DNA from: a virus
Length of the DNA stretch: 20,874 nucleotides
Virus record (IMG/VR): IMGVR_UViG_3300050821_007115
Coordinates: 1-20,874 of that record
Direction: 5' to 3' (one strand)
In this document: piece by piece, positions 1,244 to 20,874 of the stretch
Layout of the letters: each line of letters begins with the position of its first letter
How positions within the stretch are numbered: the stretch's first letter is position 1
Program-made: the position numbers and the translations under genes
Notes under the pieces: model-generated
Told to the model about the DNA's origin: nothing
Database searches by the model: none
What the model saw: the letters and a program-made list of their open reading frames with translations, nothing else

Positions 1244-1951
1244 TTACAAAGTTCCTATATGTTCATTGCCGTTGCCGGTCCTTGCTGCCAGACCTTGTCT
1301 CCAACGGCTCGCTGCAAGGGAACCACTCTTCATTGGGCTGAGATGGTCATCCATCATGGCGGCATACTCTTCCTTACGCTTCCGCTCCGCTAGTTCCTCT
1401 TCATACTGGTAGAGCAGAAGGTACTCTTGCGCGCGCGACTCCGGAGTGCCTCTCCGGTTATTGATCCCGCTCGAATAGCTGGAGATTAACTTCTGCAGTA
1501 CATCCGTTGAGGGAATCTTTGCCCACGGTCCATAGATCATCTCGTAGTCTCCGCGCTCTGGGTACGGTCCCAGCATCGACGTGAAGCCATCGATGGCCTT
1601 GTACGAATACCATTCCTCTTGCGTACCGTATGAGGATGCGGGAAACCACTTCTCCAGAATCCAACCGTCGGCGTGCGGGTACTTTCGCACCTCGCGCATC
1701 TCGGTCACGACTCGGATCGGCCTGTTGTCGTAGCGCTCAAAGTTACAGCCAGGCATATTAGGTGTTGGCTCAAAACGCATGCCTCCCTTTTCCGCCGTGG
1801 TCAGACCGTCGGCCCAGTCGCGATAGACGCCGGCTTCCTTCACCAGACGGTCTGACCCAACCAGCAGCCGCCACTGCGGTTGTTCAAACGGGCTTTTGCC
1901 GCCGTACCTTGTAAGAAACTCTTGAATACCCCTCGGTACTATGTGGCTCAT
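1244..1951 (-). CDS. Unknown phage protein downstream of major capsid gene
   Basis: A 235 aa protein. The start ATG at 1951 has GGAGG at 1955-1959 with a short three-base spacing. It begins MSHIVPRGIQEFLTRYGGKS. The middle is rich in Trp, Tyr and charged residues (for example GWILEKWFPASSYGTQEEWY), as in a soluble globular protein. About residues 150-205 are helical and strongly charged (QYEEELAERKRKEEYAAMMDD), a likely coiled coil. No signal peptide, membrane segment or cysteine motif is visible. It follows the capsid gene after an unusually long gap and is 71 bases ahead of the zinc-ribbon gene, so it probably belongs to head completion or assembly. I do not recognise the family. Confidence 0.65.
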   Translation of the reverse strand: MSHIVPRGIQEFLTRYGGKSPFEQPQWRLLVGSDRLVKEAGVYRDWADGLTTAEKGGMRFEPTPNMPGCNFERYDNRPIRVVTEMREVRKYPHADGWILEKWFPASSYGTQEEWYSYKAIDGFTSMLGPYPERGDYEMIYGPWAKIPSTDVLQKLISSYSSGINNRRGTPESRAQEYLLLYQYEEELAERKRKEEYAAMMDDHLSPMKSGSLAASRWRQGLAARTGNGNEHIGTL

Positions 1952-2036
1952 GATCCTCCGTGTGTGAAGGGCTCCATCGCTCCCGCGTATTCGTTTAGCT
2001 GATGGACTTTGAGGAAACTGAACTCAGGTCAACCAT

Positions 2037-2132
2037 TTATCGCGGCACGCGTTCTAAAGCCATTGCACTAATGCGCTGAAGTTGATCAAAAGTTAGGGCC
2101 CCAAAATGGTTATCTTGAGGCCTTAACTCCAT
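2037..2132 (-). CDS. Possible 31-residue microprotein in the post-capsid gap
   Basis: An ATG at 2132 opens 31 codons that read MELRPQDNHFGALTFDQLQ and end ERVPR before a TAA at 2037-2039. The composition, with a helix-like LTFDQLQRISAMALERV, is protein-like. The stop is directly followed by another ATG at 2036 that opens only 13 codons, the same TAAATG arrangement seen at other junctions here. There is no good ribosome binding site, and an imperfect inverted repeat lies inside it, so it could equally be noncoding leader sequence. It fills part of the longest gap in the window (1952-2187). Confidence 0.25.
   Translation of the reverse strand: MELRPQDNHFGALTFDQLQRISAMALERVPR
2091..2128 (-). 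repeat. Imperfect inverted repeat in the gap after the capsid gene
   Basis: AGTTAGGGCC at 2091-2100 faces GGCCTTAACT at 2119-2128, ten bases with one mismatch and an 18-base loop. On the transcribed minus strand it is followed by only TTT, so it is at best a weak or partial terminator, or an RNA-stability hairpin that could set capsid mRNA levels against downstream genes. The rest of the gap shows no clear promoter. Confidence 0.3.
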
Positions 2133-2187
2133 CACCGAGTGTTTCTGAATACATACAACCAGCCGGATAGCTTCGTTCCAGGTTGGT

Positions 2188-3474: not shown

Positions 3475-3554
3475 GGAAAACTCAATCCTCTTCTAGTAGT
3501 TAGCCCAAGTGAAGCGCGCTGAAGGCACGCATTAAGGGCGTCTGCTTTACTGTT

Positions 3555-5102: not shown

Positions 5103-5161
5103 GCTGGGAACTCTTTCTGGATCTCAGGCGCTCCGGGCGCTCAGGAAACTCGGAAGTTGTG

Positions 5162-5356
5162 TTACACCATTGCGACAAACGGTAAGACTTCGCTCCCCGT
5201 CAACGGATGAGGGAAGGTTATGTCCACCTTAGGTGGTTGCCCGTTGCTGCCCTTTGGACATCTCGGGCATACTGTCTCGATCACAAGCCGATCTCGCATC
5301 GCCTCGTATGTCAGCGACATCAACTTCCGGTTGCACTTCGGACAACGGATGTCCAT
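5162..5356 (-). CDS. Com-like small zinc-finger protein
   Basis: A 64 aa protein starting MDIRCPKCNRKLMSL. I choose the ATG at 5356, which overlaps the portal stop by one base (TGATG); a GTG one codon earlier is also possible. Cys5, Cys8, Cys30 and Cys33 form CPKC...CPRC, and the strand before the second pair (LVIETVCPRC) matches the layout of phage Mu Com, a zinc-binding protein that activates translation of the mom DNA-modification gene by binding its mRNA. Com-like proteins are widespread in prophages, often without mom. Here no mom candidate is present; the gene sits between portal and scaffold, so it may act on a neighbouring transcript, or be a structural zinc protein. The C-terminal half (PKVDITFPHPLTGSE) is not zinc-finger-like. 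Confidence 0.65.
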   Translation of the reverse strand: MDIRCPKCNRKLMSLTYEAMRDRLVIETVCPRCPKGSNGQPPKVDITFPHPLTGSEVLPFVAMV

Positions 5357-7941: not shown

Positions 7942-8329
7942 TCATCCTCTTGCCTTGCGCTTCCGCTTCATCGAGAGCCGCATTGACTTTTTCCTGAGAC
8001 GCAGGCACCCATGCCACCCTCGGCCCAACGTCTCGCTTGCTGTAATCGCGGTATGCCTTGCGGGTTAGTTCATCAGCTAGCTTTGCCGGACGGCGACGAA
8101 AGCGCATCAGCTCCGCGATGGCCTCGCCCTCGGGGTCGGCAAGTTCGGGCGTCTCCTCGGCTTCTGCCTCTTCTTTGGGCGGCGGTACCCGGAAGATGGG
8201 CCCGCCTAGCCCGAGCGTAGCCAGCCGGTCAAGCAGGAGTTTGCGCTCGTCCTTCAACTCGCCGAGCTGAGTCGACAATAGAACGACAATCGCGTTGTGC
8301 GATCTTAGGGAGATCCAGGGTAGCTTCAT
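7931..8329 (-). CDS. Unknown small phage protein upstream of portal
   Basis: A 132 aa protein. The ATG at 8329 overlaps the stop of the LamG gene by one base (TAATG) and the 3' end overlaps the portal start by 11 bases. An N-terminal segment (IAVVLLSTQLGELKDERKLL) is hydrophobic then helical, followed by a Pro/Glu-rich linker (VPPPKEEAEAEETPE) and a basic helical C-terminus (RRRPAKLADELTRKAYRD). There is no enzyme motif. The slot just ahead of the portal is where terminase usually lies, but this protein is too small for the large subunit, lacks Walker motifs, and has no clear DNA-binding fold; a small-terminase role is only a guess. Confidence 0.6.
   Translation of the reverse strand: MKLPWISLRSHNAIVVLLSTQLGELKDERKLLLDRLATLGLGGPIFRVPPPKEEAEAEETPELADPEGEAIAELMRFRRRPAKLADELTRKAYRDYSKRDVGPRVAWVPASQEKVNAALDEAEAQGKRMNGN
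7946..7951 (-). promoter_or_regulatory. Portal ribosome binding site inside the preceding gene
   Basis: AAGAGG on the minus strand, four bases before the portal ATG at 7941 and embedded in the last codons of the preceding gene. It supports the ATG start and shows the overlap is deliberate. Confidence 0.55.
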
Positions 8330-9138
8330 TATGGCCCCGCCGTCTGAATTGCCGCGATCTGGCCGGTGGAGAGCACCCCGGAGAATATTTGTAGGTTACT
8401 CATCGAACCGGTGTAAGGCGTAGACCCGTCCACCCTATTACCGACGGTAATCGGGGCTCCACTAGCTGACGATCCGGTGAAAGTGTCATTTGTGGTCCCA
8501 AAAGGCTGTGCGATGCCGCTGATGTAAATAGTCACTCCACTAACATGTTGAGAACCGTCATAGGTAAGAATTACATTCTGGGGAGTCCCGAACGTTACTG
8601 AAGTTAAGGTCTGAACAATTATGTAATTGCCTGGATAGCTATTGATAAGGAAAAACGTGATCTGACCTACGCTGTCCTGAAGGCCAAGTTCCCACCCCGT
8701 AAAATTTGAGGATGATGGCAAAAGATTACCGACAAACGTCGATCCGTTGGCTGCTGGATTAACCCATATCGAGACAGAGAACGGTTTCGTTCCGTCGAAA
8801 TCAGTGATCGCCGTCTGCGCTGCAACTGCACTGGAGTTCGTACCGTTAAATATGGGCGATGGTACTCCCATGCCCGTGCCCCAGGTGATGTTCGAGGCCG
8901 TGATCGTGTTGGCGTTCGCGGTCGCATCGGCAAAGGTTGAGCCGGAGCCGTCGTGCATCAGCCATTGCTCGGGCAGGCCGAGAACTGGGCCGCCGCCGGT
9001 TCCGGGCACACCGCCACAACCGTTCTTGGGTTTCTGCGCAACCGGGCCGGGAATCCCCCCACATCCAACCTGCTGCGCGAGAACCGCGAGAGGGCAACAG
9101 AGCGCGGTAGCCAGGACAAAGAGAGAGAGCCTAGTCAA
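8329..9138 (-). CDS. Secreted LamG/concanavalin A-like lectin-domain protein
   Basis: A 269 aa protein. No ATG fits; the TTG at 9138, which overlaps the upstream stop by eight bases, gives a well-formed Sec signal peptide, MTRLSLFVLATALCCPLAVLA, with probable cleavage after residue 21. Residues 24-47 carry two copies of a GCGG[IV]PG motif (25-31 and 40-46). Residues about 58-265 show the LamG/concanavalin-like pattern: WLMHDGSGSTFADATAN, FSVSIWVNP, GWELGLQ, NVILTYDGS, GVTIYISG and ITVGNR followed by YTGSMSNLQIFSGVLS. Such domains bind carbohydrates or surface ligands and occur in phage decoration and tail proteins. The export signal is odd for a cytoplasmically assembled virion part; it may be an exported host-modifying or adhesion protein. 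It sits in the phage operon, upstream of the portal. Confidence 0.7.
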   Translation of the reverse strand: MTRLSLFVLATALCCPLAVLAQQVGCGGIPGPVAQKPKNGCGGVPGTGGGPVLGLPEQWLMHDGSGSTFADATANANTITASNITWGTGMGVPSPIFNGTNSSAVAAQTAITDFDGTKPFSVSIWVNPAANGSTFVGNLLPSSSNFTGWELGLQDSVGQITFFLINSYPGNYIIVQTLTSVTFGTPQNVILTYDGSQHVSGVTIYISGIAQPFGTTNDTFTGSSASGAPITVGNRVDGSTPYTGSMSNLQIFSGVLSTGQIAAIQTAGP

Positions 9139-9493
9139 ACTCTGTCACCCGCACGACCGTTGACGTCGCGCTCGCCGAACGCAAATTCGCAAGAAGCGTT
9201 GCTGCGAGGCTATACCCCCCGGAAGCATCTGCACCTCGGCCGATAATCAGGCCGTAGCCGTGGTTCTGCGGAATGGGGTCGCCCAGGACGATTGGCTCGG
9301 TTTGTGGCGCCACTTGATAGACCGTCGTGAATTTGGGCGTCTCGCCGTCGTCGAATTGATATGCGAGACCCTGTCCGACGCCAGCATTGGCGGAATAGTC
9401 CTCGAGGATTTCGACGCGCCGGGTTGGTTGCGTAGCGTAAACCGCCGTCCATGCCCCGCCGCTGCCGTTGATGTCAATGAGTCGTGTACGCAT
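9131..9493 (-). CDS. Unknown 120-residue beta-rich phage protein
   Basis: The ATG at 9493 directly follows the stop of the 58 aa gene (TAAATG). The protein begins MRTRLIDINGSGGAWTAVYA and contains RRVEILEDYSANAGVGQGL and VLGDPIPQNHGYGLIIGRG. It is small, beta-like and soluble, with no signal peptide or cysteines. Features such as 'RRVEI.ED' and a mid-protein loop suggest a small decoration, stabilising or tail protein, but I do not recognise a family. It overlaps the following LamG gene by eight bases and so is probably co-translated with it. Confidence 0.6.
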   Translation of the reverse strand: MRTRLIDINGSGGAWTAVYATQPTRRVEILEDYSANAGVGQGLAYQFDDGETPKFTTVYQVAPQTEPIVLGDPIPQNHGYGLIIGRGADASGGYSLAATLLANLRSASATSTVVRVTEFD

Positions 9494-9670
9494 TTACTTT
9501 TTCCTCAATTTCATCAAGGTCTCCGCTAGACGCGCCTTCTTGCCGAGCACGCCTGGGGCGTCGTCCTTCTCTTCGGCGTACTCGGCAGTCGTCTTGCCCT
9601 CATGTTTTGCCGCAGCGCTAGAGCTCCCGGGCTTCTTGATTGCTTTCTTGATCCAGTTTTTTGCTGCCAT
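9494..9670 (-). CDS. Short basic phage protein (KNWI..AIKKPG type)
   Basis: A 58 aa protein beginning MAAKNWIKKAIKKPGSSSAA and ending RLAETLMKLRKK. The ATG at 9670 overlaps the stop of the lipoprotein gene by one base (TGATG), and its TAA touches the next ATG. The opening, a NWI/NFI-type segment then AIKxPG, recurs in small proteins of many tailed phages, whose role is not established. It is strongly basic (many Lys), suggesting nucleic-acid contact or binding within the virion. The reading frame fits its neighbours exactly, so I regard it as real despite its size. Confidence 0.7.
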   Translation of the reverse strand: MAAKNWIKKAIKKPGSSSAAAKHEGKTTAEYAEEKDDAPGVLGKKARLAETLMKLRKK

Positions 9671-9996
9671 CAGATCACGCTTTCCTGTTGCAAGGTGTTG
9701 TCGAGGGCAACCAGGATGCCCCAGTCTTTTCTTAAAAGGTCTACGTCTTCCACGAAGATCGCCTCATTCGTCTCGTCCTGGATCGCCAAGAGATCGCGCC
9801 CAACCGCAAGCAATTCGGGCTGCTCATATCGCGAGATCGGGTCCACCGCGTAGTTCGGAAACGCCTGCGTGATCGTGTGAGCCCACGACTTCGCGCTTTC
9901 GATTACGTCGGGAGCCACGGGAGCCTTGACAGCAACACGCATGGAGCAGCCGGTAAGCACTAACAGGTAGGCGAGAAGGAACACGCGGTGAGTCAT
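9670..9996 (-). CDS. Small lipoprotein in the lysis/envelope cluster
   Basis: A 108 aa protein. The start is ATG 9996, which overlaps the stop of the YiiX-like gene by four bases (ATGA). It begins MTHRVFLLAYLLVLTGCSM: a short basic n-region, a hydrophobic core and a lipobox LTGC with the lipidated Cys at position 17. The mature part is acidic and helical (LAVGRDLLAIQDETNEA). Phage outer-membrane lipoproteins near endolysins are often Rz1-type spanins, but those are usually short and Pro-rich, which this is not, so spanin is only one option; a superinfection-exclusion lipoprotein is another. No partner inner-membrane spanin is obvious except the TM/coiled-coil protein at 12020-12292. Confidence 0.65.
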   Translation of the reverse strand: MTHRVFLLAYLLVLTGCSMRVAVKAPVAPDVIESAKSWAHTITQAFPNYAVDPISRYEQPELLAVGRDLLAIQDETNEAIFVEDVDLLRKDWGILVALDNTLQQESVI

Positions 9997-10577
9997 AGAC
10001 TCGCCTTTGCCAAAGAGCATTTTGCCGCCACGGATGGATCGCACCATACCTGCTCCGGAGTCGCCATGATCGGGCCCGATGTGACAATGGGGTAGGGCGT
10101 AGCGCGGGTCATCAATTGCTGCAGCCCAGAACAGTACAGCTCTTTCTTCGGGTTATCGATCGGGAAGAACTTTAAAAGCTTGTGCGCGGCGAAGGTGACT
10201 TCGCTCTGCCAGTCATAGGTGTCATCCAAGACGGCAAATCCGGATTCGAGTTCGGCTTCTATTTGATCCGCCGTAAGCCTTGGCCGGGACGCCAGCGCAA
10301 GGCCTCCCTTGTATCCAGGCACATAATCGCTCAACAGCCCAACGTGGACGCCCTTATCGATGGTCGCTTCGAGGGTGAGCCAGGGAGAAAAAACCCAGGG
10401 CCTCCACGCCATCAAGACGTGCGAGAATGGCGAGTTCGTCTCCTTCTCGATGGGTTCCGAAATTCCATCGGCTCCCGAGCAAAAGACAAGATCGCCTTGT
10501 TGCACCGCGGCGAGAAACGCGGTTGCGTCAACCTTCGGAATCGAGGATGAGGCTATGCTTGCGATGTGTTCGGCCAT
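9993..10577 (-). CDS. YiiX-like permuted papain-fold (NlpC/P60 superfamily) hydrolase
   Basis: A 194 aa protein. I choose ATG 10577 (MAEHIASIAS), with GGGGGA just upstream; a TTG twelve codons earlier is weaker. The gene overlaps the preceding one by 25 bases. Motifs match the YiiX/YebB family: GDLVFCSG at 28-35, SPFSHVLMAW with His53, LEATIDKGVHVGLLSDY at 69-85, and LYCSGL with Cys149. In this circularly permuted papain fold the His comes first and the Cys last, and Cys149/His53 would be the catalytic pair. Known relatives act on peptidoglycan or on lipid/amide bonds. In a cluster with a muramidase and a lipoprotein, peptidoglycan cleavage during lysis or entry is the likely job, but the substrate is unproven. 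No signal peptide is visible. Confidence 0.7.
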   Translation of the reverse strand: MAEHIASIASSSIPKVDATAFLAAVQQGDLVFCSGADGISEPIEKETNSPFSHVLMAWRPWVFSPWLTLEATIDKGVHVGLLSDYVPGYKGGLALASRPRLTADQIEAELESGFAVLDDTYDWQSEVTFAAHKLLKFFPIDNPKKELYCSGLQQLMTRATPYPIVTSGPIMATPEQVWCDPSVAAKCSLAKASL

Positions 10578-10852
10578 TGGTCCCCCACTTTGGTCGTACT
10601 CCAAACTTCCCAATTCACGTAGATTTCCTTTTTGACCCTGGTGCCGCGCTTGTCGAGGCCCTTAACTGTCACAGACCAAGCCTCGAAATCCTGCGCCTGA
10701 CCCACCTGGACCAAGCGTTCATTCCTTCCGCTTCCGATCGCGGCAAGGTGGGAACCTTGGGGCTGCGGCAGATAGTGGTTGGTCGCGATAACGACTCCGC
10801 TCACAACCTCATCGGCCCTGAAAAAAGAGAGAACCCTTGACCAGAGAGACAT
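10553..10852 (-). CDS. Unknown 99-residue phage protein
   Basis: The ATG at 10852 overlaps the stop of the preceding gene by one base (TAATG). The protein begins MSLWSRVLSFFRADEVV, an amphipathic or short membrane-associated helix. The rest looks like a small beta-rich soluble domain (WSVTVKGLDKRGTRVKKEIY). No catalytic motif or cysteine is visible. It lies between the lysis genes and the YiiX-like hydrolase and overlaps the latter by 25 bases. I do not recognise it. Confidence 0.55.
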   Translation of the reverse strand: MSLWSRVLSFFRADEVVSGVVIATNHYLPQPQGSHLAAIGSGRNERLVQVGQAQDFEAWSVTVKGLDKRGTRVKKEIYVNWEVWSTTKVGDQWPNTSQA

Positions 10853-11265
10853 TAGCTTGCTGGCGGTACCGGAGCTGCGGTGATTTTGTTGATATTCCCG
10901 AGAGCAGTAGCTCCGAGGACGACGGTCTCGACATCGGCCTGGGCATTGCTCAAGCTAGCCTGCGCCAAAAAGAGGGCGATTTCAGGCCCCCACAGGGCTA
11001 CGATCTTGGCAACCTTCTCCGCGTAGGGAACAGTAGACTCCCCGATTGCTGGCTCTTGGCTTTCAATCGCCGCAAGACCCTTCTGGGCAAGTGATACGGC
11101 TGCCATGTATGGCGTGTAGATTTGCGCCGGCAGCACCTTCTGTAGAAACGGCTGTTCTGCCACGCTCAGGTTCACGGCCGCGTTGAGCGTGCCCTGGAAA
11201 ATCTTGGCAATATCCGTGAAGACGGTCTCAAGCTTGTCCTTTTTGACTACGGGCGCGGTGCTCAT
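10852..11265 (-). CDS. Unknown Ala-rich helical phage protein
   Basis: A 137 aa protein, starting MSTAPVVKKDKLETVFTDIA at ATG 11265, with a strong AGGAGG seven bases upstream. It is almost entirely helical and Ala/Val rich, with a hydrophobic stretch (KIVALWGPEIALFLAQASL) that is moderately hydrophobic but broken by charged and polar residues, and a Pro-rich tail. It may be a membrane-associated or packing protein of the lysis group or a virion component. I do not recognise the family. Confidence 0.6.
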   Translation of the reverse strand: MSTAPVVKKDKLETVFTDIAKIFQGTLNAAVNLSVAEQPFLQKVLPAQIYTPYMAAVSLAQKGLAAIESQEPAIGESTVPYAEKVAKIVALWGPEIALFLAQASLSNAQADVETVVLGATALGNINKITAAPVPPAS

Positions 11266-11272
11266 AATCTTG

Positions 11273-11278
11273 CCTCCT
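11273..11278 (-). promoter_or_regulatory. Strong ribosome binding site for the Ala-rich gene
   Basis: AGGAGG, the full anti-16S consensus core, seven bases before the ATG at 11265. It is one of the strongest in the block and lies in one of its few intergenic spaces (11266-11279). Confidence 0.7.
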
Positions 11279-11279
11279 G

Positions 11280-11504
11280 TTACGATTTTGGGGAGTCGAC
11301 AACCGTCGCGCTCGGCGCGTTGGCGATCGTGCTCTCGTGTGATTGCTTGACGCCGTTGGTAAATGCCATCGTGCCGGCTCCGATAATGCCGGAGCCTATG
11401 TCATCCACAATGCCGAAGTGCTTGCACAGCAGCACCATTCCACATCCCGCGAGAATCAGCAGGAAGGCCCATGTCTGATCTGTTATGTCAACCGGCTTGT
11501 TCAT
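11280..11504 (-). CDS. Small membrane protein, candidate holin
   Basis: A 74 aa protein. The ATG at 11504 directly follows the endolysin TAG, and GGAGG lies at 11510-11514 inside the endolysin's last codons. Residues 11-30 (TWAFLLILAGCGMVLLCKHF) form a membrane helix; residues about 35-50 (DIGSGIIGAGTMAF) could form a second, weaker one. The C-terminal tail is hydrophilic. Size, one to two membrane segments and position beside a muramidase fit a holin, which times lysis by opening the inner membrane. No holin family was recognised, so this is by context. Confidence 0.6.
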   Translation of the reverse strand: MNKPVDITDQTWAFLLILAGCGMVLLCKHFGIVDDIGSGIIGAGTMAFTNGVKQSHESTIANAPSATVVDSPKS

Positions 11505-12020
11505 CTATGCCTCCGCCCTGGCCAACCATCCGGCGCGATACTCTTCAAGGCTTGGGTTGGCCGCGATCAAATTGTTGTAGTGCTGCACTGCTTCATTCTT
11601 CAGGAGCCCCAGCACGGCTTCCGGGTCGCTCACGTCCAATGCATGGAGCGTCAGGGGGCCAATGCGTCCATCGCCGCTGACATGCAACGCATCCTGCAGC
11701 ATCTTGGCTACAGTAACCACGCCACAGTTGACGCCAATCGAAAGCAGCTTATCCGCGATGTCTTGATTCGTGATATCCGCGATGCAGAGCGGATCCGCAT
11801 ACTCTTTCGTGTAGATCGATTCCGCGATCTTCAGTGCGGCCACCGAGCCCATCGAGCCGTAAAACAGGCAGTTACTCAAATCCTGGTGATACTGCTGATC
11901 GATGCCGAATCGCGTCAGCCACGTATTTCCGTCAGCGTCCCTGCGACTCGTGATGACTCCCGCTAGGGTTGAGTCTTCAAACCGGAGAACGTAGTCGATG
12001 GCCTGCTTTACGTTTGCCAT
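11505..12020 (-). CDS. Endolysin, GH108-type muramidase with C-terminal peptidoglycan-binding domain
   Basis: A 171 aa protein starting MANVKQAIDYVLRFEDSTL at ATG 12020, which overlaps the upstream stop by one base (TGATG); a longer reading from 12077 would overlap the upstream gene and lacks support. Glu15 in RFEDSTLAG, then DADGNTWLTRFGID (28-41), corresponds to the GH108 signature (catalytic Glu, loop, TxxGI). From about 95 to 168, a PG_binding_3-like domain is visible: GDGRIGPLTL, then the NPSLEEYRAGWLARA ending typical of this family. GH108 enzymes cleave the N-acetylmuramic acid to N-acetylglucosamine glycan bond of peptidoglycan. There is no signal peptide, so release would need the holin. 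Confidence 0.85.
   Translation of the reverse strand: MANVKQAIDYVLRFEDSTLAGVITSRRDADGNTWLTRFGIDQQYHQDLSNCLFYGSMGSVAALKIAESIYTKEYADPLCIADITNQDIADKLLSIGVNCGVVTVAKMLQDALHVSGDGRIGPLTLHALDVSDPEAVLGLLKNEAVQHYNNLIAANPSLEEYRAGWLARAEA
11510..11514 (-). promoter_or_regulatory. Ribosome binding site for the holin candidate, inside the endolysin gene
   Basis: GGAGG five bases before the ATG at 11504, formed by the endolysin's final codons. It ties the translation of the two lysis genes together. Confidence 0.6.
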
Positions 12021-12292
12021 CAATGAACCTGTGGCTGCCCCGTTACGCGCGCCGCAGCATTGTAGCCATCCTTCCATTCGTTGAACCGGCCGAGGTGCAC
12101 TTCATGATCCGTCAGTGTCTCGCCGTGCGCCCTCAGCGTCTCATCATGCCCATCAATGCGCTTGCTGGCTTCGCCAAGTTTCTCTGTGAGGCGTCCAGAC
12201 GTGAATGCCACGCCAATAAGCGTGGCGAAGACGCCAAGCAGAGAGCAGACTGCAGCCACCGCGGCCCAATTGAACGTGATCTCTGTCCCCAT
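12020..12292 (-). CDS. Membrane-anchored coiled-coil protein, candidate lysis accessory
   Basis: A 90 aa protein with ATG at 12292 in a TGATG overlap with the fibre gene stop. Residues 9-31 (WAAVAAVCSLLGVFATLIG) form one membrane helix near the N-terminus. Residues 33-75 are a hydrophilic helix with repeated RIDGHDETLRAHGETL and LTDHEVHLGRF segments, a likely coiled coil. One N-terminal helix plus a long helical tail is the layout of an inner-membrane spanin or of some small holin/antiholin proteins. It directly precedes the endolysin and shares its junction, which supports a lysis role. The exact class cannot be decided from sequence alone. Confidence 0.6.
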   Translation of the reverse strand: MGTEITFNWAAVAAVCSLLGVFATLIGVAFTSGRLTEKLGEASKRIDGHDETLRAHGETLTDHEVHLGRFNEWKDGYNAAARVTGQPQVH

Positions 12293-15200
12293 CAGTAGGC
12301 GCTCAACGCCGCTCGCTTTACCGTGCCCGAGGCCGTACAGATGTAGAGATAGCTGCTATCCGAACCCAGGAAAGCGCCCGGCATGCAAGGCGCGTTATCG
12401 GCCGGCGTGTTGACCGGCAAGGTGATGTTGTTCGCAATCGGCGTGAAAACCAGATATGCCATCTCCACCGTGGTATCTAGAGCTGAGTTGTGAAGAACCA
12501 GCTGCAAATCGCACGTCGAGGCATTGGTGAAATCTACCAAGGCGGACCCTTGCGCCCAGGACGTCGTAAGCGAGGGATTCAAGATAAGAACCGAGCCACC
12601 ACCCGAGCAAGCTCCAGAGCCGCCGTTGACGGCATCCAACTCGAAATAGAAGCTGGTTGCGACAGTGCCCTTGAACGCATAGTGGACAATGTACTTGCCC
12701 GGTGCGATCTTCTGGTCGGGTCCTATCGCCAGGCGGCTGTTCTGGTTGAAGCCGATGGACGAGCACCCTTGCCCGGGAGAAAGATCACACGATGCATAAC
12801 TGTGACTTACCGGCGCGGTATCGTCAAAGGTCCAATTACCCATTGGGAATTGATCCGGGAAGAGAATGGCCGAGTTCCCGCTGACGTATTCCGGCCCTGC
12901 CAGATCATTTCCAGTGGCGAACATCTCGGCTGTTTGGCCGGTGACGGGGGCGAGGTTATTACCTGCGACAAGGGCACCGAATGGACCGACCGGCCCGTCC
13001 GTATGACCAGACATTGACCCATTTGGGCCATAGTTGAGTAGCGCCCCGTCTCCGTAGATATTGCTGACGCCCCCCAAGCCCGCATTCTGCACGAACTGCA
13101 TCGTCGTGGCTGTGCCATAGTTGATGATCGGCGTTGCGCCGAGCCCAACTATTTCGCTGGCAGCAAAGGTATTGTCGCCGCCCTCAATGAATGTCGTACC
13201 GCCGCCAAACGAAAACCCGGCACCGTAAGAACATTTGCCGCAGTTCAGCTCAAAATCGGGCTGCGATCCGGACTGCGAGCCCTCTTCAGCCTCGATGTAC
13301 CAGTTATCGAAGTGGCTGACTGTGTTGTCGCTGCCGCCACCGCCGGATTTGTCGTCGTAGGTTCCGCCCCATGTCCAACCAGCCCCACAGCCCACAACCC
13401 CTAGTGGTTGAGTTGGATTAGAGGTTCCAGTCTCTCCGCCGTTCTGGCAGAAGGTAAGGAAATTGGTTTTTATGTCGTTCTGCGCTTCGATAAACTCAGT
13501 ATCGTATCCCGCTGATTGTATCGCTATGTTGTCCCAGTTCGATCCGTTGGCTGTGGGATATCCAGATCCGAACATGCCATAGACGTTGATTGAGGGTGTT
13601 CCTTCAAAGATGCCGAATTGCGGGTTCAGTATGCGGATATTTGAAAACTTAGATTTAAATGTCGAGGTGGCGATATACATTCCAGCGGTCGCGTTGCCAG
13701 CCTGAAATGCATTCGGGCCGCCCTCCACCCCTCCGCCGTTACCCGCCGTGAAATCTGGAAGCGTCATAACAATATCGTGCATGTCCCCAAACGACAGAGC
13801 CCCGTTGCTGGGCCAGTCGACGCCGTTAAAGACAGGCTGCGCCCACGCCGCATTGCCGATATTCCATGCCGGGAAATAAACCGCGTTGGCTGGAGTCACG
13901 CCCGCGTTGATCGAGGGGGTAACAGGCCAGGGCCATGTCGGCTGGAACGGATTGAGGGGCACAATAGCAGCGCCAACCGAATGTGCCGCAGCCGTAGTGC
14001 CGTTTTGCGCTCTTCCTGTAAGGCTGATGGTAGGCGCGGCTCCGGCTGTCGCGGGGTAGTTACTCGTTCCAAAATAAGAAAACTGCTCTCCGTCGATCTG
14101 CACCAGTCCATACGGAGCGACATTCGAGCCGGTGCCTGCCGGGTTGGGCGTTGACGGCGGCGTGATTGGATTAGCTAGGGTGATTACAAGAGGGAGAGCT
14201 GGAGCGGTTGCGCTTCCGCTCTCCTCCTGGGGTGCGATTGTGCCGCTCGCAAATCCGTCAATGGTGAATGTACCCGAAGTTGTACCCGAAACGGTCGCAA
14301 TCGAAGCTGATCCGTTAAAGACCCCGCCACCATTCGTCGTGTTGGAAATCGTTACAACCTGCCCCACCACTGGTGGATTGCCAGAGGTCAGCGTAAAGGT
14401 GTAAGCGCCTACCGTGCCAGACTGCGATGTCGCAGTAATCGCCATGACTGTCGGCGCAAAAGAACGTGTCGACGAGATCGCCGTCTCTATCTCTTGCACC
14501 GCTGTTCCAGAGGCTGTAGAGCTTGGGGCTGCACCCGCCATCCATTCTTGCTGCGTTTGCGATCCGCTCACCGGATAGGCATTCGCAAGAACTACGGTCG
14601 AGCCCGACACACTGCTAACAGTCGTAACAAACACGCCGGTCGAGGCGTAAGGGAAGACGATTTGCTGTCCGACGACTGGGACCGTGGCCGAGGTAATTGT
14701 GATGCTTGTGGTGCCATTGGTCGAGGCTACGCCGTTGATTGCGCCGGTATTGTTCGGGCCGCTACCGATGATCCATCCGGGACCAAGGGGATAATTCGCC
14801 CAAACCGTGAAGATGCCTTCGGGGCGATACGTCGCGGCATGCTGCGTGACGGTTCCCGAAGGATTGACATCCTGCCAAGGCTTCGATGCATTGATGCGCG
14901 GGTCGATCTCCCACTTCATGTCGTGAATCTGCATGCCGGGAGACATGCCCTGATAGCCGCTCTGCGACGGGTCCATACCGGCAAACACGTCATCGCCAGC
15001 TAGGCCGGTGACTAGGGATCTGGTGGCGCTTTGACCGTGGAAGCTCTGCCCCCAAACCGCAATCGTATCCGACCAGCAATTTCCGACTGGAAATGCTATG
15101 GGGCGCTGATAACTGAAATGACCGAAAGCCGAAGCGATGGCTGCATCGTCGCGGTGGCCGATATTAACCGAGTATTGCGACACCGTGAACGGCGCATTGG

Positions 15201-16467
15201 TCGAGAGGGTTGCCGTGTTAGTCTCTACGTCGACAGCGGTGACGGTGGCATCGAAGCGGGTGGGTTCGCCCGACACCTGATAGACCATCTCAATATCCTT
15301 GCCAATGTCCGGTGCCGATACGGTGTAGCCAGAGGTGAAGGTGAGCGTGGGACTACCGCTTGTGACCGATCCAAAGCCACCTTGGAGATCGCACTGCGCG
15401 CCGCTTTCTTTTACGTTCCAGTCCGAAACCGGGTAAGTCTCACGCAGATCCTGGACAGCGTCGAAATTGGAGTTCGTGAACGGTGTTGCGTTGTCGCCGT
15501 TCTGGATGGCGACGGTGCTATTGGTATTAGCCGTGAACCAAGTATTGAGTTGCGATGTGCTGAGGCCGCCTGGGAAAGTGAACCTATTCGTTGCCGGCCC
15601 TACGGTTGTATTTGAACCTGAATTAGGGTAGGTCGTGTCCTGATACTGGGTACCAGATCCAACTGCACCAGTTCCCGCACCGCCAGCCGCCGAGACTGTA
15701 ATCGTGTTACTGGCCGTATTAACAGTGATATTGCTGCCCGCCACAATCGTGGTCGCATCCTTGACGCCATTAACTGACGGGACGCCACTTACAGCGCCGA
15801 TCTGTATAGTCTGCCCCGACGGCGTGATGGTTATATTTGAACCTGGAGTCAACGCCAACCCACCAGAGATATTATTTAACTCGGTTACACATCCGCTCGA
15901 GCAACCTGCTCCTGGCTCAGTGATTGCGTAGTTAGACCCGTTCCATGCATACCAAGTGAAGGGTGTTGTCGTGACATCCACAAGCCCGAGCGAAGTTGTG
16001 CCCGTTACCGATGCGATTATCGATGGAGAGCCACCCAATGCATACCAATCTGCCGATAAAATGATTGTATTTGGAATGCCCTTGCTATTCGCATTGATGG
16101 CCTCTTGCAATCCGGCCGTGCCAGAGGTCAGATAGAACGGTGGCAGGTGATCGTTGTGAATCGCAAGCTGCACCGAGCAGGCGTTGATATTCACCAGGCC
16201 GGCAACAACGACCTCATTCAGTGATGGATTCCCAGGGTCGATTACCCGCACAGGTACGCCTTGTGTAAATGCGTTGAAATTTTTGCCTCCACCCGAGACC
16301 TGGCAATTGGACGGCGAAAAGAAAAACGAGTTTTCCGCCGTTCCTGTCAGGCTAAACTGGCCGTATTGGCTCGCGATAATCTGCCCCTCGACATTCTGCG
16401 CTGGACATAGCTCAGGCATACAACCAGAGAGAATCAGCAATCCGGCAAGCCAAAGAAGCATTTTCAT
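12292..16467 (-). CDS. Giant lipobox-bearing fibre / beta-helix protein (possible depolymerase)
   Basis: A 1391 aa protein. The ATG at 16467 (MKMLLWLAGLLILSGC) overlaps the upstream stop by one base (TAATG); the longer open frame to 16608 overlaps the upstream gene and is rejected. Lipobox LSGC puts a lipidated Cys at 16. Residues 24-183 are homologous to the N-terminal domain of the next protein upstream, including Cys55 and Cys97. About 350-475 has a pectate-lyase-3-like opening (VKESGAQCDL, then HRDDAAIASAFGHF and PVGNCWSDT). Residues 786-838 hold a common fibre module (VQIDGEQFSYFG...RAQNGTTAAAHSVGAAIV). About 890-1115 looks like right-handed beta-helix rungs. Residues 1255-1345 form a jelly-roll-like domain, and the C-terminus (YLYICTASGTVKRAALS) is the classic tail-fibre ending. 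It probably recognises or degrades a surface polysaccharide. The lipobox is odd for a virion protein. Confidence 0.75.
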   Translation of the reverse strand: MKMLLWLAGLLILSGCMPELCPAQNVEGQIIASQYGQFSLTGTAENSFFFSPSNCQVSGGGKNFNAFTQGVPVRVIDPGNPSLNEVVVAGLVNINACSVQLAIHNDHLPPFYLTSGTAGLQEAINANSKGIPNTIILSADWYALGGSPSIIASVTGTTSLGLVDVTTTPFTWYAWNGSNYAITEPGAGCSSGCVTELNNISGGLALTPGSNITITPSGQTIQIGAVSGVPSVNGVKDATTIVAGSNITVNTASNTITVSAAGGAGTGAVGSGTQYQDTTYPNSGSNTTVGPATNRFTFPGGLSTSQLNTWFTANTNSTVAIQNGDNATPFTNSNFDAVQDLRETYPVSDWNVKESGAQCDLQGGFGSVTSGSPTLTFTSGYTVSAPDIGKDIEMVYQVSGEPTRFDATVTAVDVETNTATLSTNAPFTVSQYSVNIGHRDDAAIASAFGHFSYQRPIAFPVGNCWSDTIAVWGQSFHGQSATRSLVTGLAGDDVFAGMDPSQSGYQGMSPGMQIHDMKWEIDPRINASKPWQDVNPSGTVTQHAATYRPEGIFTVWANYPLGPGWIIGSGPNNTGAINGVASTNGTTSITITSATVPVVGQQIVFPYASTGVFVTTVSSVSGSTVVLANAYPVSGSQTQQEWMAGAAPSSTASGTAVQEIETAISSTRSFAPTVMAITATSQSGTVGAYTFTLTSGNPPVVGQVVTISNTTNGGGVFNGSASIATVSGTTSGTFTIDGFASGTIAPQEESGSATAPALPLVITLANPITPPSTPNPAGTGSNVAPYGLVQIDGEQFSYFGTSNYPATAGAAPTISLTGRAQNGTTAAAHSVGAAIVPLNPFQPTWPWPVTPSINAGVTPANAVYFPAWNIGNAAWAQPVFNGVDWPSNGALSFGDMHDIVMTLPDFTAGNGGGVEGGPNAFQAGNATAGMYIATSTFKSKFSNIRILNPQFGIFEGTPSINVYGMFGSGYPTANGSNWDNIAIQSAGYDTEFIEAQNDIKTNFLTFCQNGGETGTSNPTQPLGVVGCGAGWTWGGTYDDKSGGGGSDNTVSHFDNWYIEAEEGSQSGSQPDFELNCGKCSYGAGFSFGGGTTFIEGGDNTFAASEIVGLGATPIINYGTATTMQFVQNAGLGGVSNIYGDGALLNYGPNGSMSGHTDGPVGPFGALVAGNNLAPVTGQTAEMFATGNDLAGPEYVSGNSAILFPDQFPMGNWTFDDTAPVSHSYASCDLSPGQGCSSIGFNQNSRLAIGPDQKIAPGKYIVHYAFKGTVATSFYFELDAVNGGSGACSGGGSVLILNPSLTTSWAQGSALVDFTNASTCDLQLVLHNSALDTTVEMAYLVFTPIANNITLPVNTPADNAPCMPGAFLGSDSSYLYICTASGTVKRAALSAY
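15919..16398 (-). repeat. Duplicated fibre domain, copy in the 1391 aa protein
   Basis: Encodes residues 24-183. It aligns with the segment at 17670-18149 along its length: VEGQIIASQYG / IEGQPIASQYG, FYLTS..GLQEAIN, NTIIL, W[YF].LGGSPSII, LGLVDV and a final Y.WNGS. The copies are diverged at DNA level, so this is an old tandem duplication or recombination between fibre genes. Confidence 0.75.
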
Positions 16468-18254
16468 TAGTAAGCCACCACCCAGGCGCTTGCATTGCAG
16501 ACATAGACAAACGGACTTGCAGTTGCCGAAATGTTGTGGAATGTCCAACCCTTCGTCGTGCTGGAACAGGCAATTGTTGGCGTCGGAGTGGTGCCGCTCA
16601 TCTCGCAAAATTGCTCACCCGCGATGCATATTTTTGGGATCGTGCTATTGCTCGATGGCGGAGTTCCCGGAGTAGCGGCACCGCCAGAATCGGAGGCCGT
16701 TGCCGGCTGTGTTTCCGTTAAGAGGGATCCTTGGTTTGGTCCACCAGCCGTCCGCCATACCGTCTCGGACATTGCTCCGGCGGAGAACGGGCAACTAACG
16801 ATGATTTCTCCGGACGTTATTGTGGCGGGCCCGTCAGTGATCGACGCGATGGTTCCGGGATAAGTATTTCCATCTACATCTGTTCCAGTACATTCGTAAC
16901 TCCACGTCGTCGTGCCGGTGCCAGAAAAGTTAACAAGGCTCGGCGCGGCAATGGTGAGAGGCTGATTCGATATAACCGGACCGGCGATGCCCGCGCCAAA
17001 GCCTTGCGGCACAGTCGATTGGTTTTGCCGCGTACTGTCGAATAGGTAGCCGCTGTTTGTGATTGGTGCGAAACCGCCCCCGGGACCGACCCCGAGTTCT
17101 GAGTCGAATCTATTGATCCCGCCACCGGTTCCCTGTTGAATTGTCCCGTTTATCGCCGAGATGAAAGTTTCGTTGTTGTTCTGACAATTGACTTGCAGTG
17201 TCACGTTGTTGGTGTTGTCTAGGGAGGCGCATCCAAATACCACGGTCGTCGGAAAGGTGCCATTGCTCGAAACTACATAGTTCTGCGGCGCCTGCGTGCG
17301 GCTCCCGAAGTCATTGAGCACCGTAAGGACATTGGCGGCAGATGCATGATTCGCTGCTGTAGTCTGGTGGTAACCGCGGACCGCATTGAGGAGATCGTCG
17401 CCCGAAACCCCAGCGTATTCGATCCATTCGCTATCGACGACGACAACACCCTGTGGCGCCAAGGCCGCCGTCGAAGTCGTCAGCGGAATCGTTGTATCTG
17501 TCGCTTCAATTGCCGAAGCAAGCCGGAAGGCAGCTGCCGTCTGTGTGGTACCCAGCCCGCTATTTGGCTGGCATCCGGTAACTTCGAGGCACGTGTAATC
17601 GCCGGACTCGGCCGCGACCGCGCCGGTGCGCCCAAAAACGGACGACACGGCGCCAGAAAAGGTGATCTCGACATATTCCGATCCGTTCCACGTATAGAAC
17701 GTGGTCGGCACTGTGGATACATCGACCAGACCGAGCTGGGCACTCCCCTTGACGCTGGAGATGATTGAAGGCGATCCCCCCAACTGGTACCACCGATTGT
17801 CGAGAATAATTGTATTTGTGCCTGGGTTTGTCAGGTTCGAATTGATGGCTTCCTGAAGTCCGCCGGTTGCCGACGTCAAGTAAAACGGAAGATTGTGATG
17901 ATTAGATGGCGAGATTGCAATCGAGCACGTGTTGTTGTTGGCTACGACATTGCTTGGTGTGACAACCTCACTCAGGCTGGGATTGCCGTCCACGATTTTG
18001 ATCGGTGTGCCTATCGTGAAGGCTGCGAAGAACGATGCGCCGCCCTGGACGCGACACGAAGTGGGCGCGAAGTTATACGTGTCAGGCGCGTAACCCGACA
18101 CCTGCCACGTACCGTACTGCGACGCTATTGGCTGGCCTTCGATGTTCTGACCCTCCGCGGCCGCGATCAGTGTCACCGCTGCGATCAAAGCAAAAAGCAC
18201 GACCGCTATGACACCCCAATAGGCCTCGATCAACTCATCCGGAAGGCGACTCAT
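16467..18254 (-). CDS. Tail-fibre-like protein with N-terminal membrane anchor or signal
   Basis: A 595 aa protein. The ATG at 18254 overlaps the upstream stop by four bases (ATGA). Residues 13-33 (WGVIAVVLFALIAAVTLIAA) are a membrane helix or uncleaved signal, with possible cleavage near AAA-EG. Residues 36-195 are the domain shared with the 1391 aa protein, with Cys67 and Cys110. At 201-220 comes GAVSSVFGRTGAVAAESGDY, a hallmark of phage fibres. Residues 269-311 carry the VVDSEWIEYAGVSGDDLL, RGYHQTTAANHAS module, and 448-515 a beta-sandwich-like region resembling modules in other phage fibres. The C-terminus (FVYVCNASAWVVAY) resembles the ending of the 1391 aa protein. It is probably a receptor-binding fibre; its membrane segment is unusual. 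Confidence 0.75.
   Translation of the reverse strand: MSRLPDELIEAYWGVIAVVLFALIAAVTLIAAAEGQNIEGQPIASQYGTWQVSGYAPDTYNFAPTSCRVQGGASFFAAFTIGTPIKIVDGNPSLSEVVTPSNVVANNNTCSIAISPSNHHNLPFYLTSATGGLQEAINSNLTNPGTNTIILDNRWYQLGGSPSIISSVKGSAQLGLVDVSTVPTTFYTWNGSEYVEITFSGAVSSVFGRTGAVAAESGDYTCLEVTGCQPNSGLGTTQTAAAFRLASAIEATDTTIPLTTSTAALAPQGVVVVDSEWIEYAGVSGDDLLNAVRGYHQTTAANHASAANVLTVLNDFGSRTQAPQNYVVSSNGTFPTTVVFGCASLDNTNNVTLQVNCQNNNETFISAINGTIQQGTGGGINRFDSELGVGPGGGFAPITNSGYLFDSTRQNQSTVPQGFGAGIAGPVISNQPLTIAAPSLVNFSGTGTTTWSYECTGTDVDGNTYPGTIASITDGPATITSGEIIVSCPFSAGAMSETVWRTAGGPNQGSLLTETQPATASDSGGAATPGTPPSSNSTIPKICIAGEQFCEMSGTTPTPTIACSSTTKGWTFHNISATASPFVYVCNASAWVVAY
17670..18149 (-). repeat. Duplicated fibre domain, copy in the 595 aa protein
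   Basis: Encodes residues 36-195, paired with 15919-16398. Both copies keep two cysteines about 42 to 43 residues apart, plus the FYLTS, GLQEAIN, LGGSPSII and LGLVDV motifs. Confidence 0.75.
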
Positions 18255-19762
18255 GGATGCACTCCAACACAGTCAATTTCGGCCACGGTCGTGCCATCTG
18301 CCGAAGTCGTGTCGCCGTTTTGCAGTGTGAGAGCAAACCCGGTCGTCGTCTTTGTCGAGACATAGAGCGTGAGCGTTGAGGTTGTGCCGCCGGATGTCGG
18401 TACCGTAGGCGTGCAAGTCACCGCATAGGACGTGTCCGCGAAGGCGGTTTCCCATGCCGGGCTGAACGTGCAGGATCCATAGGCGCTACCAGCCGTAGTG
18501 CAGATCCCGGTCGTGATGATGAGGCTTTTCACGATAGGGAACGAGCTGCCATTGCTCGCTGCGATTACCTGCCCTTGCGCATTGACCGTGAGGCTCGGAT
18601 TTGTGTAATTTCCTGCGGTGACGCCGGTATTTGCGAGGTTGACTGCAGTCCAATTGCCGGGGCTGTCGCCGAGCGTGAAGGCACTCCCGAAATCGATGCC
18701 GGGCTCTTGCGGTTGTCCAGTGCCAGCCGCATATAGCGTTTGGTAATGGATTGATGGCAGTGCACTACCTGGAATCGTAGCGCTGTCCACATACGCTGTG
18801 CCGTCGCCCACCAGGATGTGAGCTACTGGCGCCACACCGTTGTAAAGATAGCCGCCACTCGCGTTGATCGCGCCATTCTCGACATCCACCGGCCAGCCGG
18901 GCGTTGAGGTGCCGAAACCAATCGCGCCCACGTTGAAGAGGTTGTATCCGCTAAGGCCAAGCGAGCCGCTGATGCTTTGCGGGCCGTGATTAAGCGGCTG
19001 CGCGACAATCGGCTGCGGATAAACGATGACACCATTCCACAGTGGAGCGCCGTCCGAAATGTTCACCGTACCATTCAAGCCGCCATTCAACTGCCACGCT
19101 TGCGGCCAGCCCGGATAGGCGTTGCCGGCTGAGGAAATCAGTGAGACGTCGTATCCCGAATAAGGGATGATTGTGTCATTGAATGCGATAGAGCACACGG
19201 ATGTGTTGCTAGATGGGGTCATAACGCCTGATGTAAGAGCTGCACGCTGATTAAACTGCGCTGTGCTATTCGAGGTTTGACCTTGCAACATCTCGCTGCC
19301 TGATGCCGTCCCGATGTAGACGCGCATCCCGGTGGCATTCTGCGGAAAGCTGACTTGCGGAGAGATCGTCAATGTGCCGCTCGCAGTTAGCTGCAGGCGT
19401 AGTTCTGGAGAGGGTAACGTTTCTTGACTGCCGCTGTAGAACGTTGTCTCCACGTAATAGACGCCAGCAGGCAGTGCGCCAGAGCCATAGTTGACGCTGG
19501 TAATCACGTTGCCGGCTGGGTTTGGAATGCCGATGACCGTGCCGTCGGTCGAAGTGTAGCAAGAGGTCGTCAAGGGCACCACGGACCCGGAGCCGACAAT
19601 CAAGCCCGCTTGCTGGAGAGTGAAATTCAGCGTGGCATTGCTAATAGTTATCCCACTGGGCCCCTGAAGCATACCGTTGACAGTGCCGGCGTGCGCTGAT
19701 GGCATCGCGAGGATAGACAAAAGAACCAAATAAGATTTCAAATGGAGGCCCATGGTTGTCAT
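18251..19762 (-). CDS. Secreted tail-fibre-like protein
   Basis: A 503 aa protein starting MTTMGLHLKSYLVLLSILAM, with a Sec signal peptide (Lys9, hydrophobic 11-20, cleavage likely after SAHA at 25). Residues 84-165 resemble fibre Fn3/BACON-like modules (ALPAGVYYVETTFYSGSQET, then MRVYIGTASGSEMLQ). Residues 270-310 look like a fibre shaft (GYNLFNVGAIGFGTSTPGW), and 381-405 (VTAGNYTNPSLTVNAQGQVI, AASNG) is a very common fibre motif. The C-terminus has several cysteines (421, 431, 450, 498). It is likely a receptor-binding fibre or adhesin. The ATG at 19762 lacks a strong ribosome site; ATG 19753 is an alternative. It is the first of three exported fibre-like genes. Confidence 0.75.
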   Translation of the reverse strand: MTTMGLHLKSYLVLLSILAMPSAHAGTVNGMLQGPSGITISNATLNFTLQQAGLIVGSGSVVPLTTSCYTSTDGTVIGIPNPAGNVITSVNYGSGALPAGVYYVETTFYSGSQETLPSPELRLQLTASGTLTISPQVSFPQNATGMRVYIGTASGSEMLQGQTSNSTAQFNQRAALTSGVMTPSSNTSVCSIAFNDTIIPYSGYDVSLISSAGNAYPGWPQAWQLNGGLNGTVNISDGAPLWNGVIVYPQPIVAQPLNHGPQSISGSLGLSGYNLFNVGAIGFGTSTPGWPVDVENGAINASGGYLYNGVAPVAHILVGDGTAYVDSATIPGSALPSIHYQTLYAAGTGQPQEPGIDFGSAFTLGDSPGNWTAVNLANTGVTAGNYTNPSLTVNAQGQVIAASNGSSFPIVKSLIITTGICTTAGSAYGSCTFSPAWETAFADTSYAVTCTPTVPTSGGTTSTLTLYVSTKTTTGFALTLQNGDTTSADGTTVAEIDCVGVHP

Positions 19763-19874: not shown

Positions 19875-20237
19875 TCAGAATCGGCCCCCGCCATGCACCA
19901 ACTGCATTCCGCAGGACAGCACCTCGCCGACTTGGTTTCTGCTGTATACCTTTACCCATGATTGCGGGTTGCGGTACGTTGCAAGCTTACGATGTTTTCC
20001 GAGCCAGATCATCTCTCCTGTCTTAACGAGAGCCTCCACCTTGCTCTTCGCATAGTGATGGTGCCGTCGGCTGCTGCATTTGTGTTCTATGCCGGCGTGG
20101 AGCAGCAATCGTGCGTCGTTTTCATTTAAAATACAGACCTTCCAACGACGGCCAGCAGCGGTGTCGTTGGTCATTCGGCTGGGATGATCGTGATTCAAAG
20201 ACAAAGGAGAGATGACGCTCTTGCCGTGGTTGCTCAT
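19875..20237 (-). CDS. Unknown 120-residue phage protein
   Basis: The ATG at 20237 immediately follows the preceding stop (TAAATG), which fixes this start over an internal ATG at codon 22. The N-terminal 28 residues are polar. The core reads RRWKVCILNENDARLLLHAG, then HHHYAKSKVEALVKTGEMIW and NPQSWVKVYSRN; this is soluble and mixed alpha/beta, rich in basic and aromatic residues with Cys at several points. No domain is recognised. The gene lies between the sigma factor pair and the fibre cluster and is probably co-transcribed with them. Confidence 0.55.
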   Translation of the reverse strand: MSNHGKSVISPLSLNHDHPSRMTNDTAAGRRWKVCILNENDARLLLHAGIEHKCSSRRHHHYAKSKVEALVKTGEMIWLGKHRKLATYRNPQSWVKVYSRNQVGEVLSCGMQLVHGGGRF

Positions 20238-20462
20238 TTATGGAAGCCCTGTCTGCCGTCGAGGTGAAAGAAGATGTCTACAGTGGGTTATTGAAAGGCA
20301 ACGCAACGCCCTGGTCACAAATAGGTGCGCCTTGGCTGCCTCGTAGATTAGTCCCAAGGTCACGTGCGCTGGGAGCGCAATCGACGGTAAGTCTACGAGA
20401 ACTTTGCCATCGATCCGGGTTTCATTTGTAAAGGACTGTATGGTTATAGATTCGGATTTCAA
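20238..20462 (-). CDS. Small unknown protein after the sigma factor
   Basis: A 74 aa frame. Its only plausible start is TTG 20462, nine bases after the sigma factor stop, with AAGAAGAG at the sigma gene's end serving as a ribosome site. Its N-terminal half (DGKVLVDLPSIALPAHVTLG) is protein-like; the second half (RCLSITHCRHLLSPRRQTG) is less so, and a frameshift or wrong frame is possible. Its stop is directly followed by the next gene's ATG, in the style of this block. No function can be proposed. Confidence 0.4.
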   Translation of the reverse strand: MKSESITIQSFTNETRIDGKVLVDLPSIALPAHVTLGLIYEAAKAHLFVTRALRCLSITHCRHLLSPRRQTGLP

Positions 20463-20471
20463 TTGAAAAGT

Positions 20472-20874
20472 TCATCTCTTCTTGTGAACTTCGCGCACAC
20501 GCTTCTTTGCATGATGGATAGTGCTCTTGACCGACGCCAGGGTCATTCCCAGTCGGTCAGCGATCTCCTGGTCGGCAACATCGTCGAGATACGCCATTTC
20601 TAAGATTGTTCGCTGTATGGGTTTCAACACCCTCAGCAATTTGGAAAGATCAATCCGCGCCGGAATCCCCGAGAGGTTACTGTCTTCGACTGTAAAAATA
20701 CATTGCCCAAGCATATCGTCGGTGGCCAGATCGTTATCGATCTGCAGCAGTTGTGAGTCGCCGTTCGTGATCTGACGACCACGGCGAAGAACCATTAGGC
20801 ACTGGTTCCTTGCAATTTGCGTTATCCAGGTACGGAAGTGTGAGTTTTGCTTAAAGGTATTGAGCCGCGTAAAA
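20472..20874 (-). CDS. ECF-type RNA polymerase sigma factor, cut by the window edge
   Basis: Reading back from the stop at 20472, the frame stays open to the right edge; the visible 133 residues begin FTRLNTFKQNSHFRTWITQI. That segment, then ARNQCLMVLRRGRQ, matches sigma-70 region 2.3/2.4 of ECF factors (promoter melting and -10 recognition). A variable linker follows, then region 4: LKPIQRTILEMAYLDDVADQ, then EIADRLGMTLASVKSTIHHA, a helix-turn-helix for the -35 element. ECF sigmas are about 170-200 residues, so about 50 are missing upstream. An ATG at 20795 is internal, not the start. No anti-sigma gene follows. It would redirect host RNA polymerase, perhaps to phage late promoters; if this is a prophage edge, it could instead be a host gene. 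Confidence 0.8.
   Translation of the reverse strand, partial: FTRLNTFKQNSHFRTWITQIARNQCLMVLRRGRQITNGDSQLLQIDNDLATDDMLGQCIFTVEDSNLSGIPARIDLSKLLRVLKPIQRTILEMAYLDDVADQEIADRLGMTLASVKSTIHHAKKRVREVHKKR

Follow-up and report, generated by a model that had tools for sequence, protein, structure and literature searches.

A phage-encoded ECF sigma factor precedes a promoter-like site, a probable structured RNA, and a late gene block in phages that appear to infect soil Acidobacteria

The DNA analysed here (hereafter the window) is an entire IMG/VR record of 20,874 bases, and the sequence ends at its right edge. Near this edge lies the end of a sigma factor gene, followed by a gap and then by a long run of genes on the same strand. 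The features considered in this report are as follows.

20472-20873 (running to 20874), minus strand: ECF sigma factor, C-terminal 133 amino acids, assigned by Pfam, PHROG, TIGR02937, and orthologues
20443..20474, minus strand: promoter-like footprint TGAACTTTTC-N14-TCTATAAC, directed toward the late genes and sharing bases with the sigma stop codon
20338..20401, minus strand: conserved 64-nt element, a probable structured RNA with gapless conservation and a paired outer stem
20238-20462: open reading frame of 74 amino acids in the gap after the sigma gene, overlapping the conserved RNA element
19875..20237, minus strand: small basic protein of 120 amino acids, the first gene past the gap, with relatives in other contigs
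1..19762, minus strand: late block with fibre-like, endolysin, major head protein, and other genes, on the same strand as the sigma gene

The sigma fragment covers the end of region 2, the linker, and region 4; it stops at a TGA codon (20472-20474), and its 5′ end is lost at the contig end. Pfam searches match Sigma70_r4_2 (2.6e-12) and Sigma70_r4 (1.3e-8), together with Sigma70_ECF exactly at the cut-off (3.1e-4) and the end of Sigma70_r2, a domain cut by the contig end, under the cut-off (4.3e-4). Matches to PHROG 1740 (RNA polymerase sigma factor; 1.3e-13) and to TIGR02937 sigma70-ECF (8.3e-16) likewise bear out the ECF-like assignment made in the sequence-only reading. Three full-length orthologues carry both Pfam regions 2 and 4 and match TIGR02937 at 2e-24 to 4e-31, with no Pfam match to region 3 at E<=0.01. 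Counted from the first in-frame start, the orthologues in contigs G007, G016, and G002 are 195, 195, and 197 amino acids long. No named NCBIfam ECF subgroup reached its cut-off among the 25 listed per protein. A PDB profile search and fold comparison both lead from the phage sigma to SigW and sigma-E. The predicted model is modest (mean pLDDT 64), its best fold matches are again sigma-E and SigW, and region 2 of this model alone fits 4lup with a target TM of 0.90. These results confirm that the gene encodes a true ECF (group 4) sigma factor composed of regions 2 and 4 with the sigma2/sigma4 fold. Among the fold matches, an RNA-guided transcription complex (9n9q) stands at rank 32; among the genes scanned around the sigma, Pfam gave nothing Cas-like.

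A co-encoded anti-sigma factor is a common, though not a defining, companion of ECF (group 4) sigma factors. No Pfam match to such a gene was found in the neighbours scanned, and the sigma of the PLZN genome and its five neighbours are without a membrane-like stretch (highest 19-residue Kyte–Doolittle mean 1.11). The earlier remark that no anti-sigma gene follows the sigma therefore holds for the neighbours scanned. Bacterial SigW and sigma-E share regions 2 and 4 with the phage protein and match it in profile and fold, but the phage sigma differs from them in having no recognised anti-sigma partner.

Relatives of the capsid protein are present in 16 viral contigs, many of them short and ending before the sigma locus. 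The sigma gene is also found in three of the 16, at 68-69% identity, and a region-4 match above the Pfam cut-off is likewise present in 3 of the 16. A weak region-4 match in contig G012 (14.8 bits, under the cut-off) was not counted as a sigma. As a query, the window fragment alone retrieved no relatives among the viral contigs, and an 861-amino acid protein found none in the phage collection. Of the 50,697 records in that collection, fifteen give matches to the window fragment (E<=0.01), each of low identity; this figure comes from a 133-amino acid query and is not a census, but it fits the expectation that ECF factors are rare in phages.

The locus is covered by eight contigs (the window, G007, G016, G002, PLZN, G017C151, G019C168, and G013), seven of which have the sigma gene at the same place. 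These represent five lineages when G016 is merged with G007 (99.8% identical) and G017C151 with G002. The eighth contig, G013 (69,310 bases), carries an exact direct repeat of at least 100 bases at its termini and is therefore probably complete. It lacks the sigma gene, even with HMMER filters off and E values up to 10, as well as the mismatch-free promoter-like site and the RNA element. Thus, the sigma is not indispensable in the wider phage group. Among the sigma genes, dN/dS is 0.12-0.21 in the six computable pairs, and four pairs involving G002 are saturated. As far as sequence comparison can indicate, these values fit an old viral gene under purifying selection.

Gene order around the sigma is also retained. 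In G007, a DUF1376/primosomal protein and small genes are followed by the sigma, the gap, the small basic protein, and fibre-like genes. PLZN has the same order, which continues to a terminase (PHROG 979, 2.9e-38) that ends about 38 kb past the sigma; the main genes there share a strand. In the relatives, the sigma is the last gene of a primosomal/replication cluster and lies directly before the co-directional late block. The sequence-only reading, in which the sigma was the first visible gene of a tightly packed late block, was thus right about its place directly before that block; it is first only because the contig stops, and a 234-bp gap separates it from the next gene. That reading had also asked whether phage or host genes lie beyond the sigma. 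Phage genes go on past it in the relatives, and no host gene was seen between the sigma and the fibre-like genes, so the arrangement named there as a refutation does not occur.

Relatives of the small basic protein occur in G007, G016, PLZN, G002, G017C151, and G019C168. The protein has no Pfam or PHROG match, and its weak structural model (pLDDT 60) gave no fold match at E<=0.001. In G013, its gene is moved upstream of two other small genes. Farther into the late block of the window are an endolysin (PHROG 315, 5.6e-20) and a major head protein (PHROG 14242, 5.4e-5); the label “fibre-like” for the large late genes is taken from the sequence-only reading. These large genes (12292-18254 in the window, with counterparts in G007, G010, G013, and PLZN) share an N-terminal module that repeats in several genes per genome, forming a modular fibre set. 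For the open reading frame at 20238-20462, the contigs searched yielded no relative, and it probably does not represent a gene.

In a scan of bacterial genomes, the capsid turned up in three MAGs assigned to Acidobacteriaceae or Acidobacteria. All three carry the sigma (E values of 2e-112, 5e-111, and 5e-76), on contigs that also hold other genes of the same phage; the next sigma matches in these MAGs stand at 8e-23, 1e-21, and 2e-21. A capsid search of 396 genomes of the phylum gave one match, in the PLZN genome. These phages appear to infect soil Acidobacteria. The phylum is common in soil, and late-gene activation in its phages appears to be little described in the literature searched.

The footprint at the sigma stop codon consists of two boxes that are also carried by G007 and PLZN, with a different spacer. 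The boxes are kept even though 69-70% of synonymous sites in the sigma gene differ between the window and G007/PLZN. In the form GAACTT-N17-TCTA, the site is common to the window and to G007/G016/PLZN, and we presume that it resembles sigma-E promoters. Without mismatches, it occurs on the late strand of the window, G007, and PLZN only at this one place, and one-mismatch hits (2, 2, and 3, compared to 1.25, 2.0, and 3.1 expected) are not above chance. A footprint extended to G002 and G019 was rejected: the consensus had been partly chosen post hoc, and the likeness was mostly gone with a consensus fixed beforehand. With the latter, the G002 site was equalled by 18 of 500 shuffles and the G019 site by 82 of 500, and the footprint there is degenerate or absent; G013 scores 13 of 17 at an unrelated place, compared to 12 for the G002 site. 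A sigma-70 match at chance level overlaps the gap after the sigma gene.

The sequence-only reading had proposed looking for a shared promoter motif ahead of the gaps at 19763-19874, 5103-5161, and 1952-2187. Such a motif was sought there and not found. Bipartite scans of the late gaps gave no promoter-like site beyond the one described, and when seven window gaps were compared two at a time (21 pairs, 40 shuffles each) no shared motif emerged; the lowest pair was matched by 1 of 40 shuffles, as chance alone would give in 21 pairs. Upstream alignments of late genes had no clear conserved block in the part of the alignment examined. We infer that the footprint at 20443-20474 is a promoter read by the phage sigma.

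Between this site and the next gene lies the 64-nt element, which is common to the window, G007/G016, PLZN, and G019C168 and is present in one copy per genome where it occurs. An RNA model built on it finds no element in the G002, G017C151, or G013 sequence searched, and of 398 Acidobacteriaceae genomes searched with it under stricter filters, two contain the element, each on a phage contig. The exact core pattern occurs in two viral contigs, G007 and G016. Three distinct sequences of the element are known, those of G007 and PLZN being identical. Three pairs of the outer stem are changed on both sides in a compensatory manner, and 97.9% of the cells in a 16-pair structure are paired, compared to 19-54% when it is slid along the alignment. 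With only three distinct sequences, the covariation score was reached by 29 of 500 shuffles and the number of pair types by 182 of 500. Folding energies of the single sequences are unremarkable, with z scores of -1.9, -1.7, and -0.4, from a prediction that omits pseudoknots. In the near-invariant core, a UCCCA hairpin loop is complementary to a downstream UGGGA, making the core pseudoknot-capable; the five pairs involved are invariant and so are uninformative for or against this fold. Rfam gave no match at gathering scores and none at E<=5 on this strand of the window’s end; the sole candidate for a known family, a sub-threshold microRNA match on the other strand, was rejected.

Support for RNA structure in this element is fair, not overwhelming, and on comparative grounds we consider it probably a conserved structured RNA. 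It is new, with no Rfam match, and is the more novel part of the locus. If the late-switch reading proposed below is right, the element may represent a new type of leader RNA in phages. Short structured RNAs near the start of phage transcripts include the HK022 put antiterminator RNA and the T4 gene 32 leader pseudoknot, and a put-like RNA at such a place lets polymerase pass terminators. The location of the 64-nt element near the probable transcript start fits that of put, a likeness of position. By this analogy, our guess is that the element could act in antitermination or translational control.

It is possible, though rather unlikely, that the element is a DNA site for replication origin, recombination, or packaging function, rather than an RNA. 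A single copy per genome would suit such a site, and inverted repeats covary in DNA just as they do in RNA. However, the near-invariant core can fold into a hairpin and pseudoknot on the sense strand of what is probably a leader, and the provirus edges described below fall elsewhere.

To our knowledge, T4 gp55 and SPO1 gp28/gp34 are not ECF-type factors. They are named among phage sigma factors for middle or late genes in the available part of one account (PMC9429907), and the available part of another mentions phage sigmas in general terms only (PMC10667309). According to the accessible text of two further papers, the podophages 7-11 and phiEco32 use a phage sigma with host core polymerase on late genes: gp47 of 7-11 directs late transcription from GTAAtg-(16)-aCTA promoters (PMC8948821), and gp36 of phiEco32 directs late transcription as well (PMC4331800). 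The 7-11 promoters, as given in that accessible text, are bipartite, and it is by layout that we liken them to the site reported here (PMC8948821). As in those phages, the sigma examined here is encoded in the phage genome near late genes. In contrast, eight late promoters of 7-11 share a motif in that account (PMC8948821), whereas here there is one site only and no motif shared by several late genes. In addition, the same text describes phiEco32 gp36 as lacking region 4 (PMC8948821), which the present sigma has.

The crAss-like phages cr10_1 and cr50_1 (Crassvirales) also carry an annotated RNA polymerase sigma factor, with 25-28% identity over 96-99% of the window fragment. These proteins differ from the present sigma in forming a separate clade, in the host group of their phages, and in their neighbouring genes. 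No title or abstract in the literature searched, with most subscription journals outside it, describes this locus. We see here a known domain in an unusual place, with a phage-owned ECF sigma that probably serves as a late switch. If so, an ECF factor would serve as a viral late switch in phages other than the crAss-like ones.

We propose that an ECF sigma of the phage itself, encoded where the replication gene cluster ends, would join host core RNA polymerase. The resulting holoenzyme would start transcription at the promoter overlapping the sigma’s own stop codon. Its transcript would begin with the structured RNA leader and extend over the genes for the small basic protein, fibre-like proteins, lysis, head, and terminase, a distance of about 38 kb from the sigma to the terminase in PLZN. 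One promoter would then serve the whole late block, presumably late in infection. Taken as a whole, this model seems to us somewhat likely to be correct. Observations in its favour are the ECF domains, the fixed gene order, a gene confined to the phage among the genomes searched, selection of the purifying type, and the two non-coding elements conserved between the sigma and the late genes. The joint absence of the sigma, the mismatch-free site, and the RNA element from G013 also speaks for the model, and the late sigma of phage 7-11 offers a precedent. The sequence-only reading had offered a late-gene switch as one of two roles; this is the best-supported one because of the position, the conservation, and the adjacent promoter-like footprint, although the shared motif expected at the three gaps was not found. 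The locus is a small testable unit, with one sigma, one candidate promoter, and one new candidate RNA.

A doubtful extension of this proposal is a two-part switch, in which the sigma would start a very long late transcript and a new pseudoknotted leader, produced immediately, would act either on polymerase, as in put-like antitermination, or on translation of the first late protein. Such an arrangement, if true, would commit the phage to late expression.

The sigma could instead be a host-directed regulator that redirects host genes for the benefit of the phage or lysogen. ECF sigmas are numerous in Acidobacteria (the three MAGs have 20, 8, and 9 matches at E<=1e-6), the phage promoter motif does not recur, and the sigma is missing from the probably complete relative G013. 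In Bacillota, sporulation-type sigmas of phages are known to act on host dormancy, as noted in the available part of PMC9429907. We nevertheless consider this role unlikely, given that five lineages have the sigma at the same position, after the replication genes and before the late ones, and that a conserved promoter-like site and RNA element lie directly downstream of it.

A switch for middle genes or lysogeny, wherein the sigma serves the replication genes or provirus induction and the late genes use another promoter, is quite unlikely. Sigma and replication genes do run in the same direction, some contigs resemble proviruses, and a GGAACTT box lies upstream of the sigma in G007 and PLZN, a pair too alike to be informative. 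However, the box that is kept across the more distant pair (the window versus G007/PLZN) is the one downstream of the sigma, toward the late genes.

Searches of bacterial genomes, in which the best eight candidates per genome were scored, bear on the origin of the gene. A sigma match at E<=1e-35 was found in 3 of 398 Acidobacteriaceae genomes, always on contigs with genes of this phage. At E<=1e-30, nine of 399 genomes of the class match, comprising the PLZN copy and eight at 7e-32 to 7e-31. A tree of six phage, 35 host, and two crAss-like sequences groups the phage sigmas in a single clade (support 100/100) whose stem measures 1.5 changes per site; the program warns that long branches meet. 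When the phage label was shuffled, 56 of 500 shuffles were as low, an unremarkable outcome because rows outside the groups are uncounted there. The captured host regulator suggested by the sequence-only reading, if recent, is not supported by the phage-restricted orthologues and the single clade; recent capture is unlikely on this comparative evidence, and an ancient bacterial origin may apply. It is very improbable that the sigma is a recently captured host gene or an assembly error, which the contact of the window copy with the contig end might suggest, given that the same gene and order recur in independent contigs and MAGs and that no non-phage orthologue is closer than about 7e-32 in the 399 genomes of the class.

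In the 87-kb contig PLZN01000357.1 of an Acidobacteriaceae MAG, chromosomal-looking genes flank a run of phage genes at about 26.9-74.8 kb, and in JANWJB010000182.1 chromosome-like genes meet a phage terminase-like gene around 17337-17453; functions of the flanking genes were assigned by reading translations. Both regions look like proviruses. Their borders fall at different places in the phage map and may be assembly chimeras. A 17-bp exact direct repeat in PLZN01000357.1 (27085 and 75506) is a candidate attachment site, but G007 continues beyond the left copy. No tyrosine integrase (PF00589) was found on the PLZN contig or in G013. The PLZN DnaB helicase seems split over two frames (L085:11015-12414), the first part matching PF00772 (7e-22) and the second assigned by eye. 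The PLZN provirus region also carries a Fic/DOC family gene (PF02661, 2e-15; L085:9492-10685).
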